Assembly (NCBI GenBank): GCA_951812335.1
Contig: OX638293.1
Location: 2,246,731 to 2,310,730 of the forward strand
DNA from: Rhodothermales bacterium
GTDB taxonomy: Bacteria; Bacteroidota; Rhodothermia; Rhodothermales; VXPQ01
DNA: 64,000 bases
Direction of reading: 5' to 3'
This document shows positions 7,245 to 50,658 of the stretch, in pieces (positions within the stretch are counted from its first letter, which is position 1; every line of letters begins with the position of its first letter). A model generated the notes under the pieces. That model did no database searches. It was not told the origin of the DNA and saw only the letters and a program-made list of their open reading frames with translations. The translations under genes and the position numbers were made by a program.

Positions 7245-7997
7245 GTGGAAATTTTTGGGATTGATGTCGGCGGTTCCGGAATCAAGGGCGCTCCGGTAGA
7301 CGTCCGTACCGGTCGCCTCACTGCCGAGCGCCTGCGCATACCGACTCCGGAGGGGGCCTCGCCAAAAGAGGTCGCCGCCGTAGTGGTGTCCATGCTGGAT
7401 CATTTCCGCTGGAAAGGTCCGGTCGGATGCGGCATTCCCGCCCGTGTCAAGCAGGGCGTGGCGCACACCGCCGCAAATATCAGTGACTCCTGGATCGGTA
7501 CGAATGCCGCCCGACTTTTCTCCAAAGCATCCGGCCGGCCGTTCGCCATCCTCAACGATGCCGATGCAGCCGCCCTGGCGGAAATGCATTTCGGGGCAGG
7601 CCGCGGCCTAAAAGGCGTCGTCCTGATGCTCACCCTCGGCACAGGGATCGGATCGGCGCTTTTCGTGGACAACATGCTGATCCCGAACACGGAATTCGGG
7701 CATTTCTGGCTGCAGGGCCAAGTCGCCGAGCACTACGCTTCCGATCGGGTGCGCAAGAAGGAAAATCTGGATTGGGAAACCTGGGCTGCGCGTATGCAGG
7801 AATACCTGAGCCACCTCGAACGCCTGCTGGATATCGACACGATCATCCTCGGGGGCGGCATCAGCAAACCCAGTCGGAGTGAAAAATTCCTGCACTTGCT
7901 CAATACGAAAGCAGATCTGTTGACCGCAGAACTCAGAAACGAAGCGGGCATTGTGGGGGCTGCATGGACAGCCCGCCGTTTGGCGGCAGGTACGTAA
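7245..7997 (+). CDS. ppgK: polyphosphate glucokinase-type ROK kinase
   Basis: 250 residues, GTG start at 7245. ROK-family fold with an N-terminal phosphate loop '[15 protein letters not shown]', the sugar-binding '[11 protein letters not shown]', the second phosphate loop '[12 protein letters not shown]', 'EFGHFWLQG' and a C-terminal 'IILGGGIS'. The '[10 protein letters not shown]' and 'GTGIGSALF' forms and the short length are typical of strictly or partly polyphosphate-dependent glucokinases (PPGK), which phosphorylate glucose with polyphosphate and/or ATP. The gene is divergent from dnaG-ppk1 and 41 bp upstream of dapD. Proximity to ppk1 supports a polyphosphate role. ATP use cannot be excluded from sequence. 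Confidence 0.85.
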
Positions 7998-8038
7998 TCC
8001 GCCTTGCACAACATTCCTGCGGACATTCCTCTGTGTAT

Positions 8039-8881
8039 ATGACTACTTCCGAACTCGAAATCCGCATCGACGAACTGGCCGGTATGCAAGCGAACGAGGC
8101 GCCTCCGAACATTGCGCGGGAAGCCGTAGGCGAAGCGTTGGCAGCACTTGACCGAGGAGTTGTACGTGCCGCGTCACGAGACGAAGATGGTACATGGAGC
8201 ACGCACACCTGGGTGAAACGCGCTATCCTGCTGGGCTTTCGAATCGGCATACTCGCCGACTATTCGAGCGGCCCCTTTTCATTTCTGGATAAGGATACGT
8301 ATCCGCCAAGAGCCTTCGATACAGGACATCGGGTACGCATCGTACCGGGCGGTTCCACGGTTCGAACCGGGGCCTACCTCGCTCCCGGCGTCGTTTGCAT
8401 GCCGCCCATGTATGTGAATACGGGCGCCTACATAGACGAAAACACTATGATCGATTCCCACGCGCTTGTGGGCAGTTGTGCGCAAATCGGCAAACGTGTC
8501 CACTTGTCGGCGGCAGCGCAAATCGGGGGCGTACTCGAACCGGTCGGAGCTGTACCCGTCATTGTCGAGGACGATGTGTTCGTGGGTGGCGGGTGCGGCA
8601 TATACGAAGGGTGCCTTATCCGGGCAGGGGCCGTGCTCGCGCCGGGCGTTCTGCTTACCGGGTCGACGCGCCTCTACGACCTCGTGCGGGAAAATATCGT
8701 CGGACGCAACAAGCAAGGTATCCTCGAAGTGCCTGAAAATGCAGTCGTTGTGCAGGGTGCAAGAGCCGTTTCAGGAGCCTTCGCCGATCAACATGGGCTA
8801 TCTCTGTACGCCCCTGTCATCGTAAAATACCGGGACCGGAAAACGGATACGGCCACGGCACTGGAAGAGATGCTGCGATGA
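8039..8881 (+). CDS. dapD: 2,3,4,5-tetrahydropyridine-2,6-dicarboxylate N-succinyltransferase
   Basis: 280 residues from the ATG at 8039 (the frame runs 25 codons further up into ppgK). DapD converts tetrahydrodipicolinate and succinyl-CoA to N-succinyl-2-amino-6-ketopimelate in the succinylase branch of lysine/diaminopimelate synthesis. The N-terminal helical domain is followed by a left-handed beta-helix of hexapeptide repeats: 'RIVPGGSTVRTGAYLAPG', 'MPPMYVNTGAYIDENTMI', 'VGSCAQIGKRVHLSAAAQI', 'VIVEDDVFVGGGCGIYEG'. 'MPPMYVNTGAYID' and 'VGSCAQIG' are DapD signatures. Length agrees with the family (about 274). It provides peptidoglycan cross-link precursors, consistent with a Gram-negative wall. 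Confidence 0.95.
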   Translation: MTTSELEIRIDELAGMQANEAPPNIAREAVGEALAALDRGVVRAASRDEDGTWSTHTWVKRAILLGFRIGILADYSSGPFSFLDKDTYPPRAFDTGHRVRIVPGGSTVRTGAYLAPGVVCMPPMYVNTGAYIDENTMIDSHALVGSCAQIGKRVHLSAAAQIGGVLEPVGAVPVIVEDDVFVGGGCGIYEGCLIRAGAVLAPGVLLTGSTRLYDLVRENIVGRNKQGILEVPENAVVVQGARAVSGAFADQHGLSLYAPVIVKYRDRKTDTATALEEMLR

Positions 8882-24124: not shown

Positions 24125-25417
24125 ATGAAATATCCCCGCTCGTACTTGCGCCGATCAGCTCATGCACTGGCCCTGCTTGTGCTTTGGTGCAGCATGGGAT
24201 CGATCGATGCATTCGGGCTCGATGAACCGGAAAGCCGCCCTGTATCGGTGATCGTCCATGCCGGCGATCCGGTCGACCCGGAAGATGTGCACAGCGCCGA
24301 GGCGCCTCCCGCCACCTGCCGGGGAGCGATGAAACCCGGGCCCGCACGTACGTACGAGACGTTGCAACGCAGCAACGTAGAACACATGAACTCCGGACCT
24401 GCGCGCACGAACGATACAGGCGAGGAACTCTACAAAAAGGCCTGCGCAACCTGTCATGGCGCAAACGGCAGAGGCGCTCCCGCCGCCCTGCTGGGTTTCG
24501 ATATTCCGCTTCCCGATTTCACCGACTGCAACTTCGCCACCCGCGAACCCGACGCCGACTGGCTTGCGGTGGCCCATCAGGGAGGACCCGTGCGCGGGTT
24601 TGCCCGGGAAATGCCGGCCTTTGGCGATGCGCTGGCGCAGGATGAACTGCAAAAGATACTGGATCACATTCGCACCCTGTGCCCGAACGACGCATGGCCC
24701 AGAGGCGAATTGAATGCGCCGCGCCCCCTGGTGACCGAAAAAGCTTTTCCGGAAGACGAAGCGGTATGGACCACCGCGATAGATATCGACGCCGAGAGCG
24801 CCGTTATCCATGAGATGCTCTATGAAAAACGATTCGGGGCGCGGAATCAATTCGAAGTAGTCGTACCGTTCGGCTTCCAGGAGCATAAGCAAGGCGGTCA
24901 ACTCGGGGATGTAGCGCTCGGTTTGAAACGCGTCATGCTTCAGAGCTTGTCGCATGGCAGCATACTTAGCCTTGGCGGCGAGGTGATTCTGCCCACGGGA
25001 CACAAAAACACGGGCATAGGAAAAGGCCTGACGCGCATCGAACCCTTTGCTTCGTTCGGGCAGATCCTGCCTGCGGATGCTTTTGTGCAGTTTCAGGGTG
25101 GTTTCGACATCCCCCTGGATCGGAATGCGGCAATGGACGAGGCCTTTTTTCGCGGCGTGGCTGGCAAAAGCTTCACGCAGGGAGATTGGGGGCGCACCTG
25201 GTCGCCCATGCTGGAAGTACTCGGAACGCGTTCTCTGGGATCGGAGGGCGTTTTACATTGGGATATCGTGCCCCAGGCGCAAATCAGTCTGAACCAGCGG
25301 CAGCATGTGATGCTCAATATCGGACTCCGTATTCCTGTAAATCACTACCCCGCCCCGCAATTTATAGTCTATCTGCTGTGGGAATGGTTCGACGGAGGCT
25401 TCTTCGAGGGCTGGTAA
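24125..25417 (+). CDS. c-type cytochrome fused to a beta-barrel domain, outer membrane
   Basis: 430 residues. Signal peptide (hydrophobic 'ALALLVLWCSMGSIDAF'). A class I monohaem cytochrome c domain spans about 95-190: haem motif CATCH at 107-111 and a likely axial Met in 'REMPAFGD'. The remaining 240 residues are alternating amphipathic strands separated by turns ('NQFEVVVPFGFQEHKQG', 'SILSLGGEVILPTGHKNTG', 'AFVQFQGGFDIPL', 'HVMLNIGLRIPV') and end in aromatic-rich strands, the look of an 8- to 12-strand outer-membrane barrel. A haem domain joined to a porin-like barrel suggests electron passage across the outer membrane. The pentahaem cytochrome follows after 26 bp, probably one operon. Function is inference. 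Confidence 0.75.
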   Translation: MKYPRSYLRRSAHALALLVLWCSMGSIDAFGLDEPESRPVSVIVHAGDPVDPEDVHSAEAPPATCRGAMKPGPARTYETLQRSNVEHMNSGPARTNDTGEELYKKACATCHGANGRGAPAALLGFDIPLPDFTDCNFATREPDADWLAVAHQGGPVRGFAREMPAFGDALAQDELQKILDHIRTLCPNDAWPRGELNAPRPLVTEKAFPEDEAVWTTAIDIDAESAVIHEMLYEKRFGARNQFEVVVPFGFQEHKQGGQLGDVALGLKRVMLQSLSHGSILSLGGEVILPTGHKNTGIGKGLTRIEPFASFGQILPADAFVQFQGGFDIPLDRNAAMDEAFFRGVAGKSFTQGDWGRTWSPMLEVLGTRSLGSEGVLHWDIVPQAQISLNQRQHVMLNIGLRIPVNHYPAPQFIVYLLWEWFDGGFFEGW

Positions 25418-25443
25418 TCCGTACCTGACCGGGAAATGTACCT

Positions 25444-27099
25444 ATGAGCGGAAAGCTGTTTCTGGTAATCCTTGTTGCTTCGGCGGGATTGACACTCGTC
25501 CATCCGCTGTTCTTCTCCGTGCCTCCGCAGGCGCCGGAGACAGCTTCTTCCGAAACGGACCCGCACTTGTTCACGACCGGCGCCGCGTGCATAAGTTGCC
25601 ATAGCAACCTGATCACCCCTTCCGGCGAAGACATCTCAATCGGCACGGACTGGCGCGCTTCCATGATGGCCAATTCGGCCCGCGATCCGTACTGGCAGGC
25701 CGCGGTCCGGCGGGAAGCGATGGATCATCCGGAGGCGCAGGATCTTATCGAAGACGAATGCGCCGCCTGCCATATGCCCATGTCGCGATTCGAAGCGAAG
25801 ACTTCGGGCCAAAAAGGGCAGGTCTTTTCTCATCTGCCGGTCGGCGAAAATACACACCGCACCGACGACCTGGCCGCCGATGGCGTTTCCTGCACCGTAT
25901 GCCACCAGATCGCCGCAGAGAACCTGGGCGCCAGAGAAAGCTTCACGGCCGGATTCGCGATCGATACGGAGACGCCGATGGAACAACGCGCCATTTTCGG
26001 GCCCTATGAGGTGGATGCGGGTCTCAGTACGGTGATGCATTCCGCATCGGGATTCCGGCAGGTGGAGTCGCGCCATATTCAACAGTCCGAACTATGCGCG
26101 ACATGCCATACGCTGTTCACGGAAGCGATCGGACCCACGGGAGAAATTGCGGGCGAACTGCCCGAGCAAGTCCCGTACCTGGAATGGCTCCACAGCGCCT
26201 ACCGCGAAGAAAAAAGTTGTCAGTCCTGCCACATGCCCGTCGTGCAGGATACCACAGCTATCTCCTCCGTATTGGGCGAGGATAAAATCGGCGTTTCCCG
26301 GCACGTATTCCAGGGGGGTAACTTCTTTATGCTCCGCATGCTCAACCGGTACCGGACCGAACTGGGCGTGGAAGCCCTCCCGAACGAACTGGAGGCCACG
26401 GCGCGGCAAACCGAGCAGCACTTACAGACAAACACCGCGCGCATCTCGATAGAAAACGCCGAACGGGTGCAGGATGCATTGCATGTCGAGGTTCGTCTTG
26501 AAAATCTGGCCGGTCATAAACTGCCGACGGGATATCCCTCGCGCAGAAGCTGGATTCATTTTATGGTGCGCGACCGGAACGGGACCCCCGTTTTCGAATC
26601 CGGTAGTATCCGTCCCACGGGCGAAATCCCGGAAAACGACAACGACACGGATCCGGCTCGGTACGAACCCCATTACCGGGAAATCACGCAAAGCGATCAG
26701 GTGCAGATCTACGAGTCCGTGATGATCGATACGCAGGATCAGGTAACGACGGGACTGTTGCAGGCAGTGCGGTACGTCAAGGACAATCGACTGTTGCCGA
26801 GAGGATTCGACAAAGCGTCTGCATCCGAGGATATAGCGGTCCATGGATGGGCGAGGGAGGACGCCGATTTCGTGGGAGGAACCGACGCCGTGCGCTATAT
26901 CGTCGATGTGAGCGGACGGCAGGGCCCCTTTGCCGTCCAGGCCTCGCTTTGGTATCAGCCGATCGGCTACCGGTGGGCCCATAACCTGAAGGACTATGAC
27001 GCTCCTGAAACCAATCGATTCGTCGAATTCTACGACGCCATGTCGGACATATCCGGCATACCGCTTGCAACGACAGAACTCGTTGTGTCCGAGTCTTGA
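25444..27099 (+). CDS. pentahaem c-type cytochrome
   Basis: 551 residues. N-terminal hydrophobic segment 'LFLVILVASAGLTLVHPLFF', either signal anchor or uncleaved signal. Five CxxCH motifs, all in the N-terminal half: CISCH (49-53), CAACH (106-110), CTVCH (150-154), CATCH (218-222) and CQSCH (259-263). The arrangement resembles cytochrome c554/NrfA-like multihaem proteins ('DECAACHMPMSRFEAK', 'DGVSCTVCHQI', 'SCQSCHMPVV'). The C-terminal half (about 310-551) is haem-free and beta-rich ('LHVEVRLENLAGHKLPTGYPSRRSWIHF'), a module often found in such proteins. It likely exchanges electrons in the periplasm or at the surface with the barrel partner upstream. The donor and acceptor are unknown. Confidence 0.85.
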   Translation: MSGKLFLVILVASAGLTLVHPLFFSVPPQAPETASSETDPHLFTTGAACISCHSNLITPSGEDISIGTDWRASMMANSARDPYWQAAVRREAMDHPEAQDLIEDECAACHMPMSRFEAKTSGQKGQVFSHLPVGENTHRTDDLAADGVSCTVCHQIAAENLGARESFTAGFAIDTETPMEQRAIFGPYEVDAGLSTVMHSASGFRQVESRHIQQSELCATCHTLFTEAIGPTGEIAGELPEQVPYLEWLHSAYREEKSCQSCHMPVVQDTTAISSVLGEDKIGVSRHVFQGGNFFMLRMLNRYRTELGVEALPNELEATARQTEQHLQTNTARISIENAERVQDALHVEVRLENLAGHKLPTGYPSRRSWIHFMVRDRNGTPVFESGSIRPTGEIPENDNDTDPARYEPHYREITQSDQVQIYESVMIDTQDQVTTGLLQAVRYVKDNRLLPRGFDKASASEDIAVHGWAREDADFVGGTDAVRYIVDVSGRQGPFAVQASLWYQPIGYRWAHNLKDYDAPETNRFVEFYDAMSDISGIPLATTELVVSES

Positions 27100-27115: not shown

Positions 27116-27418
27116 TCAATTCAGCCCCGGCATCAGTCCGCCCTGGTAGACGATAAGCGAACACAGGTAAGCCAGCCCTGTCATGTATATCCACATGACC
27201 ATCGGCCAGCGCCATGTGTTCGTCTCGCGCCGGGCAATGGCAAGCGTACTCATACATTGCAGCGCAAACACGAAGAACACCAACAGACTCAGCGCGACCA
27301 GCGGCGTAAAAACAGGGCGGCCTTCCGGATAACGGTCTGCTTTGAGATGATCGCGCAGAACAGGGCTTGACAGTCGAACGCCAGACGACGTATTCTTCGA
27401 ACGAAAACCGCTCGCCAA
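27116..27418 (-). pseudogene. feoB: feoB 3'-end relic (ferrous iron transporter C-terminus)
   Basis: About 65 recognisable residues of the C-terminal membrane domain of FeoB: 'RPVFTPLVALSLLVFFVFAL', 'CMSTLAIARRETNTWRWPM', 'IYMTGLAYLCSLIVYQGG'. The G-protein domain and most of the Gate regions are absent; upstream codons (ASGFRSKNTSSGVRL) are unlike FeoB. A full FeoB has 600-800 residues, so this is a decayed fragment. It lies beside ferritin, so an iron uptake/storage locus has probably been eroded. A GTATCCTTAA motif at 27441 may be a relic end of the dispersed repeat. Confidence 0.85.
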
Positions 27419-27480: not shown

Positions 27481-28011
27481 ATGCAAACAATGAAATCGTC
27501 TTCGATCAGCCAAACCATGCAGGACGCCATCAACGATCAGATTCAGGCTGAATTGGAATCTGCCTATCTGTACCTGGCCCTGGCGGCGCGCATGGAGCAA
27601 CTCCACCTCAAGGGCTTTGCGCACTGGCTGCGTTTGCAGTGGCAGGAAGAAACACAGCACGCCCTCAAGTTCTACGATTACCTCCTCCAACGCGACGGGG
27701 TCGTGCAGTTAAAAGAATTGCCGACGCCGACGTACGAAGCCGAGACGCCCCTCGAAATCTTCGAACTCGTTCTGGAGCACGAAAAATACATTACCCGACG
27801 CATCAACGATCTCTACGCGCTCTCCGGCAAAGAACGCGACTATGCCTCGCAGACGCTGCTGCAATGGTTCGTCGACGAACAGATAGAAGAGGAAGAATCC
27901 GCCCGCGATATCATCGACGATCTGCGTCTCGTCGGCGATTCCGGCGCCAGCCTTTTCCTGCTCGACCGCGAACTCGGCCAACGCCAATCCGAAGAAGAGG
28001 GGGAAGAGTAA
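27481..28011 (+). CDS. ftnA: non-haem ferritin
   Basis: 176 residues (a second ATG at 27490 is equally possible). Four-helix bundle with the ferroxidase ligands in the expected places: 'AINDQIQAELESAYLYLALA' (helix A Glu), 'GFAHWLRLQWQEETQHALKF' (helix B E-x-x-H), 'EIFELVLEHEKYITRRIN' (helix C) and 'QWFVDEQIEEEESARDII' (helix D Gln/Glu). It oxidises Fe(II) and stores it in a 24-mer shell. Single gene with its own upstream region, next to the feoB relic. A run of acidic residues at the C-terminus is lineage-specific. Confidence 0.95.
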   Translation: MQTMKSSSISQTMQDAINDQIQAELESAYLYLALAARMEQLHLKGFAHWLRLQWQEETQHALKFYDYLLQRDGVVQLKELPTPTYEAETPLEIFELVLEHEKYITRRINDLYALSGKERDYASQTLLQWFVDEQIEEEESARDIIDDLRLVGDSGASLFLLDRELGQRQSEEEGEE

Positions 28012-28240: not shown

Positions 28241-30871
28241 TTAATTCAGGAAGTTGTAGTTCAGCTTGATCAGGAAGGCGTTCTCAGGGAAGACATCGAA
28301 GGTATTGCCGAATTGATCGTTGATCGAACGGTCGTAGGGCGAACGGACCATAGGTGCGAGAGGATGCAATATGTCTTCTGCTTCTCTACCATGCGTCCAG
28401 ACGACGAACAGCGCGGAGCCGGGACGGTATTCCCAGCGCAATACAAGATTGGAATGCAGGCTGCTGAAGGAAAACTCATCCCGCTTGGGATAGGCGTCGA
28501 AGTCAGCCAAATGGTCCCGATCCTGCTGAACCCGGAAACGGTCGTAGCGTCCCCTTGCTGCGAAAAGCTGACTGTACAACTGCAGGGACAGTTTGGGCGT
28601 CAGGGTAAACGTGCCGCGTAGCGTAATGTCTGCCGAACGCGTATCCCTCGCGCCGAATACGGACACGTAGTACTGGTCGACGCCGGTGGGATCGACGTCG
28701 GCAAGAATGGCGTCCAGCGTTCCATGATCGTCGAACGCTACAAAATCCGAATCGGTCAAATCGTCCGGATGAGACGCTTCCTCCCCGATGCGCCAATCGG
28801 ATCCGGAGCGTAAAAAGGTTTCGTTTGCGGACCAGGCCTGCACATCGCGTTCCCACTCGCCTTCTATTTGGGCAGAGAAAGACAAGCGATTACTGGCATT
28901 CCATTGCCCTTCGAGGCTGACTTCCGATTCCGTGCCTCCATCGCCGTAAAATGTTAAATCCAGCCCCGGCTCAAGTTGCCAGTTGCGCCTTTCGTCGGTT
29001 TCGAACTGCCCCTGGATGGCGACGTTTCCCGGCGGAGACCAAGGCAAAAGACCGCGCGTCTCGTACAAATCGTACCCGCCGAACGGTTTTTCAGATTCAA
29101 GGCCGAAAATGATGGACTGGAAACCGCGGAGTGTCCACCGGGAACCGAAATCCAGGCGCTGTCCAAGGTGCAGCCCTTCCCGGTAGGAGAATTCCTGAAC
29201 GAAGAAGAAACGCGCTCCGGCTCGCGAGAAAGGGCCAAAGGGCCTTCCGCCATTAACCTGATGCTGCATGGAGGATAGCATCGCAATGAAATTGTTCTCG
29301 CGAAGTTGGCCTATATCGTTCGGATTAAAGGCATCGCTGAATACGTCCAATCCTGCAAATCCGTACCAGGCCCCCTGTCGTTTGCGCACCCATAGCTTGC
29401 TGGCGAACCCGGTCTCTCCGTCGATATCCGCCTCGATCCAGTTTCTGTTCGTAAGCGCAAAGAATCCCTCGATGCCATACCGGTTTTCGAGAAACCGGAT
29501 ATCCCAGTCGGCGCCTGCCGCCAGGCTTCGCAAGTGATTCTCGTCCACATTAGATCCTTCGAACAGGGTTACGATGCCTCCCACGCTCGACCAGGCCCCG
29601 ATTTGCTGGCTCATCCGTCCGACGCCGTATCCTCGCGAAGGACTGAAATCGGATCCCGTGGCCGCGCCCAATACGCCAAAGGAAAGGCCTGAGCCGGTGC
29701 GCCCGGAAAGCTTCGTGGCGCCAATAATGGGGGCATCCGCCCCGATCCGGCGCGTATACAGGAGCCGTCCGGGGCCGACTGAAAATTCGTAGATATTGAT
29801 GCCCTCTACAAAGAAGGGGCGCCGTTCCTGAAAAAAGGTTTCGAACGCCGTAAGGTTCAATACCGCCGGATCGGCCTCGACCTGACCGAAATCCGGATTG
29901 ATCGTCGCATCCAGCGTAACGTTCGTACCGAGACCGATCTTCAGATCCCCGCCCACATCGAAGGTGCGGCTGCTTGCCCGCGTACCGGCGACCTCCTCGC
30001 TTTCGAGGGTATTCACTCCGGTGACGGTATAGGGTATGATCTGTACGTTGCGCCGGGGCTTCACGTCCCGAATGCCTTCCAGACGACCAAACCGGGCCAC
30101 CAGGTTGGTCCGCTCCGTACGGGGCACATGGGGCCACTCCGATTGTTCGCCGAGCCGGGGAATCCTGCGCGTGAAGTGAACCCCCCATGTTTGCATGGGC
30201 GCCTCCGAGAAACGCAGCATGCTATACGGAATGCGCATCTCCACAACCCACCCCTCTTGCGTTGTGCGTACATCCGAATACCATACGGCGTCCCAGGAAG
30301 GATCCATGCCGCGGGGCGCATTATTACCGCCGCCGCCACCCGGCCCGCCCCCGCCTCCGCCCGTTGCTCCGCTTCCTGTCTGGAGCGCATCGAATTGCAC
30401 GCCGGCCGCATTCACCCCAAAGACATAGGCGGTGCGCCGGTCGAAATAAGCATCCACCGCCACCAGAAACCAATCGGCCCGGTTGAAGTCGTCACGCCGC
30501 CCCAATGCCCTTTCAATAGCCCCCGGCTCATCGTCATAGAGCAAGGCGCCGACGTAGAAATCATTCGCACCATACAAGACGCGAACCTCTGTGTTTTGAA
30601 ATGCCGGGGCGCCGTCAACAGGTTCGTATTGCCTGAAACCGGACACGGCGATAGCCCTTTGCCAAACCTCTTCGTCCAGTATGCCGTCGAGGCCGATCTC
30701 TTCTTCGAGAAACAGGGCCTGCATGACGCCCTTATTGTTCTGCTCCACAGGAGGTGGCGATAGTGCACTCGTTTGGGCCGAAGCCTCGAGAACGGGCAGC
30801 AGGACGCATACGGCGAACACGGCTGCAACGAATGCCGAAGCATGAGGGCGAATCGGTACATCTCGTTGCAT
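28241..30871 (-). CDS. DUF5916 family outer-membrane protein with CBM9-like N-domain (A)
   Basis: 876 residues from the ATG at 30871, chosen because it starts a signal peptide ('FVAAVFAVCVLLPVLEASAQ'). The N-terminal CBM9-like domain is at about 45-200: 'LDGILDEEVWQRA', 'EVRVLYGANDFYVGALLYDD' and 'ADWFLVAVDAYFDRRTAYVF'. A Gly-rich linker near residue 175 (encoded about 30330-30360) is unusual. DUF5916 follows with 'PDFGQVEADPAVLNLTAFET' and 'FQERRPFFVEGINIY', then a long C-terminal barrel ending in 'LIKLNYNF'. The family is common in Bacteroidota/Rhodothermota; function unknown, probably surface carbohydrate-related. It is divergent from a paralogue at 31103 with a 231-bp shared promoter region. 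Confidence 0.88.
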   Translation of the reverse strand: MQRDVPIRPHASAFVAAVFAVCVLLPVLEASAQTSALSPPPVEQNNKGVMQALFLEEEIGLDGILDEEVWQRAIAVSGFRQYEPVDGAPAFQNTEVRVLYGANDFYVGALLYDDEPGAIERALGRRDDFNRADWFLVAVDAYFDRRTAYVFGVNAAGVQFDALQTGSGATGGGGGGPGGGGGNNAPRGMDPSWDAVWYSDVRTTQEGWVVEMRIPYSMLRFSEAPMQTWGVHFTRRIPRLGEQSEWPHVPRTERTNLVARFGRLEGIRDVKPRRNVQIIPYTVTGVNTLESEEVAGTRASSRTFDVGGDLKIGLGTNVTLDATINPDFGQVEADPAVLNLTAFETFFQERRPFFVEGINIYEFSVGPGRLLYTRRIGADAPIIGATKLSGRTGSGLSFGVLGAATGSDFSPSRGYGVGRMSQQIGAWSSVGGIVTLFEGSNVDENHLRSLAAGADWDIRFLENRYGIEGFFALTNRNWIEADIDGETGFASKLWVRKRQGAWYGFAGLDVFSDAFNPNDIGQLRENNFIAMLSSMQHQVNGGRPFGPFSRAGARFFFVQEFSYREGLHLGQRLDFGSRWTLRGFQSIIFGLESEKPFGGYDLYETRGLLPWSPPGNVAIQGQFETDERRNWQLEPGLDLTFYGDGGTESEVSLEGQWNASNRLSFSAQIEGEWERDVQAWSANETFLRSGSDWRIGEEASHPDDLTDSDFVAFDDHGTLDAILADVDPTGVDQYYVSVFGARDTRSADITLRGTFTLTPKLSLQLYSQLFAARGRYDRFRVQQDRDHLADFDAYPKRDEFSFSSLHSNLVLRWEYRPGSALFVVWTHGREAEDILHPLAPMVRSPYDRSINDQFGNTFDVFPENAFLIKLNYNFLN

Positions 30872-31102
30872 GAAGACCGCTGTTCGAGTGAAGAAATTCG
30901 GCCGATATATCCTTTTGGGTACGCAACCTTCCGGGGGAAAGCCATGGGCGACATATATACCCATAGTTAGACCCCCAATACGTGTTCTACATTCCATGAG
31001 CGGCAAAAAAACATATCCAGCTACGTTTTCTTTATATTCTGTACCTGTATTTTCCGGCTTTTATCTGCATCTTCCTCTCTCCGATTCTTTCCGCCCCCCT
31101 CC

Positions 31103-33463
31103 ATGCACCACAGGATGCACCGCGCAAGCCGTGCAATGCTTGCGTCCCTCTTCTTTTTTCCGACCTTGTCCCTTGCGCTTCCCGCCACGGCGCAGCAAGC
31201 GGGACAGACAGGAGGCTACACCGCCAATAACAGCGCTGCCGATAGCGATCCGATCGCCGTCCCGGCAATACGCGCGGTAAAAAGCAACAGCGACACCCTG
31301 CCCGTCCTCGACGGCGATGTACTGGGCGACCCTTCCTGGTCCGCCATCGAACCCGCCACCGGTTTTATCCAAATCACTCCGAACGAGGGACAACCGGCTT
31401 CCGAGCAGACCGCGGTACGCATCCGGTACACCGAACAGATCCTGTATGTCGGGGTTGTGTGCTACGACCGCGACCCGTCGCAAATCATCGTGTCGGACAG
31501 CCGCCGGGATGCGGACCCCCGGGAGGCCGACAGTTTCAGTCTCATTCTGGACACGTACCGCGATCGCCAGAACGGATTCATCTTCGGCACGAATTCCGCC
31601 GGGGTCGAATACGATGCGCAGGTAACGAACGAAGGCCAGAACAGCGGCCGGTTCTCTCAGGGCCCGCGCAGCCAAAGCGGTTCGGGCGGCGGGTTGAACA
31701 TCAACTGGGATGGTGCGTGGACGGTCCACACGGAAACGGGAGCGTACGGATGGAGCGCCGAATTCGCCATTCCATTGCGTACATTGCGCTTCGCGACCGG
31801 AGAAAATCAGGTGTGGGGCGTCAACTTCGAACGCCGCATCCGGCGTCGGAACGAAACCGCCTACTGGGCCCCGCTCCCCCGGCAATACACGCTCGCGCGG
31901 GTTTCGCTGGCCGGGACGCTGGAAGGATTGGACATCCAGGCGCCGCGCAATCTGCAAATCATCCCGTACGCGCTTGGACAAGGCGACCGGACCACCAACT
32001 CCTCGGAGTTGCCAACCACCTCGGAATACTCAGATCCCGAAGGCGATATCGGCATAGATCTGAAGTATAGCTTGACCCCGAGTATGACACTCGACGTCAC
32101 GTACAACACCGATTTTGCGCAAGTCGAGGTGGACGAACAGCAAATCAATCTGGACCGCTTCAACCTCTTCTTCCCGGAAAAACGACCCTTCTTCCTGGAG
32201 AATGCCGGGGTGTTTGCGGTGGGCGCGCCGGGGCAGGTCGACCTGTTCTTCAGCCGGCGCATCGGTATCGGCGGGGATGGCGTAGCGGTACCCATCCTCG
32301 GCGGCGCCCGCCTCTCCGGTTCCATGGGCGACTACCGGATCGGGGTACTCAATATGCAAACCCGACAACTGGGTGGAGAGGAGATTCCAGGGAATAATTT
32401 CAGCGTGGCGCGTCTCAAGCGCGAGTTTCCGAACCGGACCTTCGCCGGCGTGCTTTTCACCAACCGGCAGGGCGTGGGCGATCTGTCGGACAAAGATGAT
32501 TACAACCGTGTATTCGCTCTGGACGGCCAGCTCGGCATCGGACAGTACGGCCTGATATCGGGCTTCGGGGCGCTGTCGGAAACGCCGGACATGTCAGGAA
32601 AAAAACCGGACATGTCCGAAAAAAATCATGCATACCGGGTGCTTACCACCTACAACTCCCAGGCCTGGCTGCTGAACGCAGGCTATACCGAGGTAGCCGA
32701 AAGCTTCAAACCGGAACTCGGTTTTATGCAGCGGACATCCGCCTACCGGCATTTTAACGGCCTCGTTTTTTACCGGTATCGTCCCGACTTCCTCCGTTTT
32801 CACGAATTGCGCCCGCATGTCAGCTACAATGGATACTGGGGATTCGACAGAGTGTACGAAACGGGTTTTCTGCATATCGACAACCACTGGGAGTGGGAAA
32901 ACGGCTGGGAAATTCACACAGGCATCAACTTTACCACGGAAGGCGTCCGGGAATCCTTTGAAGTCAGTGACGGGGTGTGGGTACCGAAGGGATCGTACCA
33001 TCATCGGGAAGCCATGATCGTCGGCATCACGGACGAGAGCCTTCCGCTCAGCCTGAGCACCCGGGTGATTGCGGGGGGATTCTTCGGGGGCGATCGCGTT
33101 ACGGTCCTGTCCACCATCCGCGCCCGGGTCGGAGATGCATTCAACACGGAAATCGGCCTGAGCCAAAACTGGGTGGACCTGCCGGGCGGCAACTTCACTG
33201 CGAATCTGGTGCGTACGCGGCTTTCGTATTCCTTCACCCCCCGCATCTACGTGCAAACCCTGATTCAGTACAACAGCGCAGCAGAACTCTGGTCCATGAA
33301 TTTGCGGTTCGGGTGGCTTCAATCGGCGGGCACAGGCCTGTTCATCGTCTTCAACCATACGTCCGAATATGACCTAAATAGGGGATTCGGAGCCTTCGAA
33401 CCGGAGTTCACAGACCAGGCGATCATTATCAAGTACTCGCGGCTGCTGAACGTGCTACGGTGA
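31103..33463 (+). CDS. DUF5916 family outer-membrane protein with CBM9-like N-domain (B)
   Basis: 786 residues. Signal peptide 'MLASLFFFPTLSLALPATAQ'. CBM9-like domain: 'LDGDVLGDPSWSAIEPATG', 'AVRIRYTEQILYVGVVCYDR' and 'DSFSLILDTYRDRQNGFIFG'. DUF5916 core: 'NTDFAQVEVDEQQINLDRFN' and 'FPEKRPFFLENAGVF', the same box as in the divergent paralogue. The C-terminal barrel runs to the end. An internal oddity is a small tandem repeat 'PDMSGKK/PDMSEKN' at 32588-32629 in a surface-loop position, containing the DNA palindrome CGGACATGTCCG. Identity with gene A is modest, so the pair is an old duplication. Probable surface-exposed barrel with a sugar-binding N-domain; substrate unknown. Confidence 0.88.
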   Translation: MHHRMHRASRAMLASLFFFPTLSLALPATAQQAGQTGGYTANNSAADSDPIAVPAIRAVKSNSDTLPVLDGDVLGDPSWSAIEPATGFIQITPNEGQPASEQTAVRIRYTEQILYVGVVCYDRDPSQIIVSDSRRDADPREADSFSLILDTYRDRQNGFIFGTNSAGVEYDAQVTNEGQNSGRFSQGPRSQSGSGGGLNINWDGAWTVHTETGAYGWSAEFAIPLRTLRFATGENQVWGVNFERRIRRRNETAYWAPLPRQYTLARVSLAGTLEGLDIQAPRNLQIIPYALGQGDRTTNSSELPTTSEYSDPEGDIGIDLKYSLTPSMTLDVTYNTDFAQVEVDEQQINLDRFNLFFPEKRPFFLENAGVFAVGAPGQVDLFFSRRIGIGGDGVAVPILGGARLSGSMGDYRIGVLNMQTRQLGGEEIPGNNFSVARLKREFPNRTFAGVLFTNRQGVGDLSDKDDYNRVFALDGQLGIGQYGLISGFGALSETPDMSGKKPDMSEKNHAYRVLTTYNSQAWLLNAGYTEVAESFKPELGFMQRTSAYRHFNGLVFYRYRPDFLRFHELRPHVSYNGYWGFDRVYETGFLHIDNHWEWENGWEIHTGINFTTEGVRESFEVSDGVWVPKGSYHHREAMIVGITDESLPLSLSTRVIAGGFFGGDRVTVLSTIRARVGDAFNTEIGLSQNWVDLPGGNFTANLVRTRLSYSFTPRIYVQTLIQYNSAAELWSMNLRFGWLQSAGTGLFIVFNHTSEYDLNRGFGAFEPEFTDQAIIIKYSRLLNVLR

Positions 33464-47175: not shown

Positions 47176-50658
<3,483 letters not shown>

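Follow-up and report, generated by a model that had tools for sequence, protein, structure and literature searches.

A monohaem cytochrome c fused to a predicted 12-stranded barrel, paired with a pentahaem cytochrome, in a Rhodothermales bacterium

What is served by a protein that joins a single-haem cytochrome c to an outer-membrane barrel in one chain, and whose gene is followed by that of a pentahaem cytochrome c? The two genes lie in a window of 64,000 nucleotides (the whole stretch of DNA that was analysed) from a Rhodothermales bacterium, contig OX638293.1, positions 2,246,731 to 2,310,730, which corresponds to G000:C1:2246731-2310730 in our genome collection. The original prediction, made from the letters of the window, regarded them as a compact porin-cytochrome-like pair and the haem-bearing barrel as a distinct design, and it took a ferritin gene and a feoB relic nearby as a hint of iron-related redox chemistry. 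In our analysis, the fusion and the pentahaem gene form a genuine, co-inherited pair, and the description that suits the fusion best is Cyc2-like in design, with a barrel of COG4313 type. The reading that we favour is a haem at the entrance of a channel and not a wire across the membrane. The features are listed in Table 1; both genes lie on the same strand, separated by a gap of 26 bases.

Table 1. Features of the haem-barrel fusion gene and of the pentahaem gene in the window. Residue numbers refer to the fusion protein; aa, amino acids; dN/dS, ratio of nonsynonymous to synonymous substitution rates; pLDDT, predicted local distance difference test score.
Feature	Position	Strand	Basis
Fusion gene, 430 aa: leader, variable segment, monohaem cytochrome c, conserved linker, predicted 12-stranded barrel	24125..25417	+	Pfam, AlphaFold2, structure matches
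Residues 1-95: hydrophobic leader and poorly conserved segment	24125..24409	+	dN/dS 0.54 against congener G003; model pLDDT <50
Residues 96-185: cytochrome c domain with the haem motif CATCH (107-111); likely sixth ligand M163 (invariant)	24410..24679	+	Pfam, alignment
Residues 186-210: conserved linker, possible lumen plug	24680..24754	+	Mean entropy 0.70 (16 sequences); plug by analogy with COG4313
Residues 211-430: predicted barrel of 12 strands, with a conserved C-terminal tail (FDGGFFEGW)	24755..25414	+	AlphaFold2, Foldseek, VIA-align, conservation
Pentahaem cytochrome c related to ExtKL and c552 (551 aa), with five CxxCH motifs and five more His that are well conserved	25444..27099	+	Motifs, profiles

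Behind the leader, the fusion is variable to about residue 95 and then continues into a cytochrome c domain of class I type, which has a single CxxCH motif (C107-H111). Pfam matched this domain to Cytochrome_CBB3 (residues 96-182, 2.6e-10) and to Cytochrom_C (2.9e-7). M163 is invariant in all 8 sequences of the fusion alignment A3, from which the homologue L020 was excluded as containing X, and it is likely the sixth haem ligand. The AlphaFold2 model built on A3 depicts the C-terminal domain as 12 consecutive strands (residues 211-421), with block pLDDT mostly 68-94. In a Foldseek search with the barrel model, FapF was the top match (E 4e-8) and the COG4313 channel 4rl8 was found at 2.5e-5. 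Among 992 chains drawn from the Foldseek list and compared with VIA-align 2, 4rl8_C came first (Z 18.9, root-mean-square deviation 3.1, 212 residues aligned), in a tie with FapF (Z 18.6, deviation 3.0-3.1, 212-215 residues aligned); the 12-stranded KdgM and NanC porins followed (Z 16-17). At the sequence level, PF13557 (Phenol_MetA_deg) gave the window fusion 13.7 bits against a cut-off of 22, while the homologue L047 reached 22.4; the family was observed in 4 of the 8 A3 members at E up to 0.1 (best 3.8e-7). The joining of a monohaem cytochrome c and a barrel in one chain therefore stands as predicted, and structure prediction, used to check for a soluble C-terminal domain, returned a 12-stranded outer-membrane barrel instead. 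Viral carriage was rejected: the 58 pattern matches in viral contigs included no relative, and a viral fold library yielded only generic barrels.

The pentahaem neighbour also agrees with its first description, with CxxCH cysteines at C49, C106, C150, C218 and C259 and a beta-rich C-terminal part (predicted strands at 332-386 and 480-548). The ExtKL profile NF040886 matched all seven members of the pentahaem alignment (best 2.5e-10); the window protein itself scored 32.4 bits and did not reach the equivalog cut-off of 250. A profile of seven pentahaem sequences returned one solved relative of note, 5ze8 (9.4e-6), the penta-heme cytochrome c552 from Thermochromatium tepidum, and the same structure was the sole match below 0.001 (2.4e-6) in a fold search with the low-confidence model of the protein. 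A pentahaem family uniting ExtKL and the T. tepidum c552 is described in PMC11976967. With these proteins the window cytochrome shares five CxxCH motifs, a C-terminal beta module and detectable homology; it differs in falling far under the equivalog cut-off and in adjoining a haem-barrel fusion rather than lying in an extHIJKL-type cluster. Among the 15 paired pentahaem proteins, H95, H287, H358 and H410 are kept in all and H211 in 14. Five conserved further histidines make five bis-His haems plausible, and the haems are probably all of this kind. H95 is absent from all 11 close unpaired relatives; the five most distant unpaired proteins were excluded from this ligand count, though kept in the tree described below.

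To compare the surroundings of the fusion, 20 distinct loci were assembled, comprising the window, 2 congeners, 7 loci from the genome collection and 10 from a search of the phylum. The genome-collection scan gave 12 loci, from which L024-L027 (weak, cytochrome domain only) and duplicates were removed, and 11 of a separate set of 15 matches were excluded for weak similarity to the cytochrome domain alone. L016 is the same record as G004 and L018 the same as G038, and each was entered once. The pentahaem gene directly adjoins the fusion in 15 of the 20 loci, and the fusion frame is open in 19 (one carries an in-frame TAG, and L021 is truncated by a contig end), so that neither the fusion nor the pair is a matter of chance. 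The in-frame TAG, in L050 (G261, about 7534-8750, minus strand), lies inside the barrel; the gene may be decaying, or else the sequence is in error there.

The distribution of the two genes across the phylum points the same way. The barrel profile matched 14 of 394 genomes of the window's phylum at E ≤ 0.001. Each of the 11 genomes with a strong match (E ≤ 3.7e-86) has the pair, and all of them belong to the order or class of the window. With the pentahaem profile, 29 genomes matched at E ≤ 1e-10; those below 1e-200 number 11 and are exactly the genomes with a strong barrel match, which bears out the original view that the two genes belong together. Outside the phylum, one genome-collection scan identified the pair in metagenome-assembled genomes (MAGs) labelled Acidobacteriota (L019), Deltaproteobacteria (L022) and Myxococcota (L023). 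In a tree of 31 pentahaem proteins, built with a quick method, the 15 paired proteins fall on one side of a branch with a Shimodaira-Hasegawa-like approximate likelihood ratio test (SH-aLRT) support of 100. The 14 paired fusions are likewise on one side of a branch in the fusion tree, with a support of only 77. Pairwise distances of fusions and pentahaem proteins correlate with r 0.94 over 14 loci, a value equalled in none of 2000 permutations; L050 was excluded from the fusion tree and from this test. All-against-all blastp revealed no third gene common to the loci beside the pair.

A haem-bearing barrel does have a precedent, contrary to the original prediction. Cyc2, as presented in PMC8406198, consists of a signal, a monohaem cytochrome and a 16-stranded porin, which the cytochrome plugs at the periplasmic side. 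The window fusion resembles it in uniting a signal, one N-terminal CxxCH cytochrome and an outer-membrane barrel in one chain, with the cytochrome expected in the periplasm. The differences lie in the barrel, which has 12 predicted strands and is COG4313/FapF-like, whereas that of Cyc2 has 16 and is OprO/OprP-like in the description given there, and in the cbb3-subunit-III-type cytochrome domain and the conserved pentahaem partner of the window fusion. The Cyc2 motif, as given in that text, is AXPXFAR[Q/K][T/Y] upstream of CxxCH with PXL four residues after; it was not found in the window fusion, which reads NDTGEELYKKACATCHGANGRGAPAALLG, and reading by eye showed AXPXFAR to be absent from all 8 A3 sequences. 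Because neither the motif nor the strand number matches, the fusion was not filed as Cyc2; it probably represents a construction of its own that uses a COG4313-type barrel.

The Cyc2-like domain order (signal, monohaem, barrel) could still be read as that of a variant iron oxidase, in which Fe(II) would enter the barrel and be oxidised by the haem. The ferritin gene (27481-28011) and the former feoB that adjoin the pair, both located in the window as predicted, would suit such an enzyme. However, the published Cyc2 motif is missing, the barrel has 12 rather than 16 strands, and the iron genes are not conserved beside the pair. The ferritin adjoins it only in the window genome and in congener G004, and not in congener G003 or any other locus. 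The feoB remnant (27119-27418, minus strand) shows 87% identity over 89 residues to the C-terminus of the intact FeoB (L055:12831-15224) that Pfam identified beside the same pair in G004. Since no FeoB_N match in the window genome exceeds 49.8 bits, whereas the G004 protein scores 196.6, FeoB seems to have been lost from the window genome. As neither gene accompanies the pair elsewhere, we attribute them to local history, without bearing on function; an iron module was accordingly rejected, and the early hint of iron-related redox falls with it. An iron oxidase is quite improbable.

The cellular location of the pentahaem protein was addressed through type IX secretion system (T9SS) sorting domains, of which the window genome holds 44 over the cut-off. 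Such a domain was found over the cut-off in 7 of 10 unpaired pentahaem relatives tested versus none of 7 paired ones; the paired proteins are therefore probably periplasmic. The unpaired relatives would probably be sent to the cell surface, the paired form staying in the periplasm with the barrel. The seven relatives with a T9SS sorting domain, the pentahaem open reading frames of L086 and L088-L093, probably represent surface-exported multihaem cytochromes. A literature search on multihaem cytochromes combined with T9SS sorting found no paper. The same contrast between paired and unpaired proteins might mean that the barrel itself exports or displays the pentahaem protein in place of the T9SS route, and the close structural match to FapF, which serves in secretion as a channel, would suit this. 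Multihaem cytochromes, however, acquire haem and fold in the periplasm, after which they could hardly pass through a pore of 12 strands, and the barrel's own cytochrome would be left unexplained; this explanation is highly improbable.

An outer-membrane barrel together with a multihaem cytochrome is also what MtrCAB and the porin-cytochrome complexes (PCC) offer, and the original prediction placed the pair near them. A compact conduit of this kind would carry electrons through the pentahaem protein and the fusion to extracellular acceptors or from extracellular donors. The relationship of the partner to ExtKL fits such a role, as ExtKL comes from a Geobacter cluster that includes an outer-membrane porin-like protein, according to PMC5877670. 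However, the window protein remains far from the ExtKL cut-off, and the paired proteins lack T9SS tails. Furthermore, the window barrel is far smaller and bears its own haem domain, and no other multihaem gene adjoins the pair in the loci scanned. The large porin that holds a multihaem cytochrome in PCC and MtrCAB (26 strands in MtrAB, in the account given by PMC8406198) has no counterpart in a barrel of 12 predicted strands with a single haem. A porin-cytochrome conduit is not supported by these features, and we regard this function as improbable.

The barrel most resembles the COG4313/Phenol_MetA_deg channels (Pput2725, SphA) and FapF, with which it shares the 12-stranded fold and possibly a segment before strand 1 that occludes the lumen. 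In the COG4313 structure this segment occludes the lumen, and the channel of a barrel of COG4313 size measures about 10-12 angstroms even when the plug is disregarded, as reported in PMC4493636. Linker 186-210 sits directly ahead of strand 1 and, by analogy, may occlude the lumen in the same manner. The fusion differs from these channels, for which the sources available mention neither a cytochrome domain nor a pentahaem partner, and sequence similarity is weak. Among the papers listed by open-access literature searches, none showed a cytochrome c fused to a COG4313-type barrel, which is weak evidence of absence.

Conservation was profiled over 16 sequences, the distant fusions L051-L053 being excluded. 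The more conserved face of a strand is also the more polar one in 11 of the 12 predicted strands (the last strand is the exception), so the lumen is probably functional. The linker has a lower mean entropy than every barrel strand, and the C-terminal tail (0.43) is the most conserved stretch. Predicted periplasmic turns are on average less variable than extracellular loops (entropy 1.18 vs 1.69). Between the window and congener G003, dN/dS amounts to 0.095 for the haem domain, 0.23 for the linker and barrel, and 0.13 for the pentahaem protein.

The conserved turns and tail bear on the possibility that the barrel is a mere anchor. It would pin a periplasmic relay to the outer membrane with nothing passing through it, and the pair would shuttle electrons between inner-membrane respiration and other redox proteins of the outer membrane or surface. 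A barrel too narrow for a haem wire agrees with this. The window genome contains two COX1 genes, and Cytochrome_CBB3 exceeds its cut-off at eleven sites there, one of them the fusion; the organism is thus probably an aerobe with other c-type cytochromes, which could link the pair to respiration. Together with the 44 T9SS sorting domains, the COX1 genes make respiratory and surface partners possible. Against an anchor stands the strongly conserved polar strand face, which a bare anchor would not need, and anchoring by a lipid would come at a lower cost. Conservation of the periplasmic turns, moreover, is commonplace in outer-membrane barrels. We consider an anchor unlikely.

Our preferred reading is an outer-membrane-tethered periplasmic redox unit of two proteins, in which the fusion would exchange electrons with the pentahaem relay and act on a small molecule that reaches the barrel. 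We hold it tentatively, at slightly less than an even chance. Both proteins would be exported by Sec, with haem attached in the periplasm. The fusion would then insert a narrow, predicted 12-stranded COG4313-type barrel into the outer membrane with both termini inside. Twelve strands place both termini on the same side, and the rule stated for porins in PMC8406198 makes this the periplasm, which would put the haem at the inner mouth. There the cytochrome domain would hang, held by the conserved linker that may enter the lumen. As the channel is too narrow for a cytochrome domain, a haem wire through the barrel is unlikely. The pentahaem protein, probably all bis-His, would be the usual periplasmic partner, given its pairing and co-inheritance with the fusion. 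Bis-His pentahaem proteins have low potentials and His/Met monohaem domains higher ones. Electrons would most likely run downhill from the pentahaem chain to the monohaem, and in reverse if the substrate were a strong reductant. The monohaem would exchange electrons with a small, probably hydrophobic or redox-cycling molecule at the barrel or the membrane edge.

Several points weigh against this periplasmic unit. Contact between the fusion and the pentahaem protein is inferred, as is the side of the membrane, and the order of potentials is the one generally expected of such haems. The model does not fix the cytochrome relative to the barrel (cytochrome blocks at pLDDT 51-77, overall predicted template modelling score 0.61), and the pentahaem model is poor (mean pLDDT 46). 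Plain vertical descent would also yield the observed correlation of distances. Finally, 5 of the 20 fusion loci have no adjoining pentahaem gene, so the fusion can exist without one.

A further possibility is that the pair independently arrived at the idea behind Cyc2. It would form a redox-active uptake channel in which the COG4313-type barrel brings a small molecule to the haem at its inner mouth and the pentahaem protein serves as a dedicated wire, in bacteria not known for iron oxidation. This is rather unlikely; if true, cytochromes fused to barrels would comprise a second class, whose substrate is not iron. So far such fusions are known mainly through Cyc2, in iron oxidation. Another one, apparently unrelated and built on a COG4313-type barrel, which keeps a fixed pentahaem partner and occurs patchily in several phyla, suggests a wider use of the design in which a small outer-membrane channel is coupled to a haem in the periplasm. 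The ExtKL-type pentahaem family also gains a testable outer-membrane partner.

The unpaired fusions comprise the Acidobacteria records L020 and L021 and the three distant relatives L051-L053. In L020 and L021, the product of the gene after the fusion matches CarboxypepD_reg weakly, at a score under the cut-off. In the MAG record L020 (8539-11318), the fusion is flanked on both sides by related proteins of 255-269 aa with this weak match and a C-x-x-H motif, and L021 carries one such protein, downstream of the fusion. These CarboxypepD_reg-like proteins are a possible alternative redox partner of the fusion.

Elsewhere in the window, a second haem protein was identified, a large DUF7133/HEAT/cytochrome c protein of 1160 aa (47176-50658, plus strand). 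Two divergent DUF5916 proteins adjoin each other at 28241-31006 (minus strand) and 31103-33463 (plus strand).

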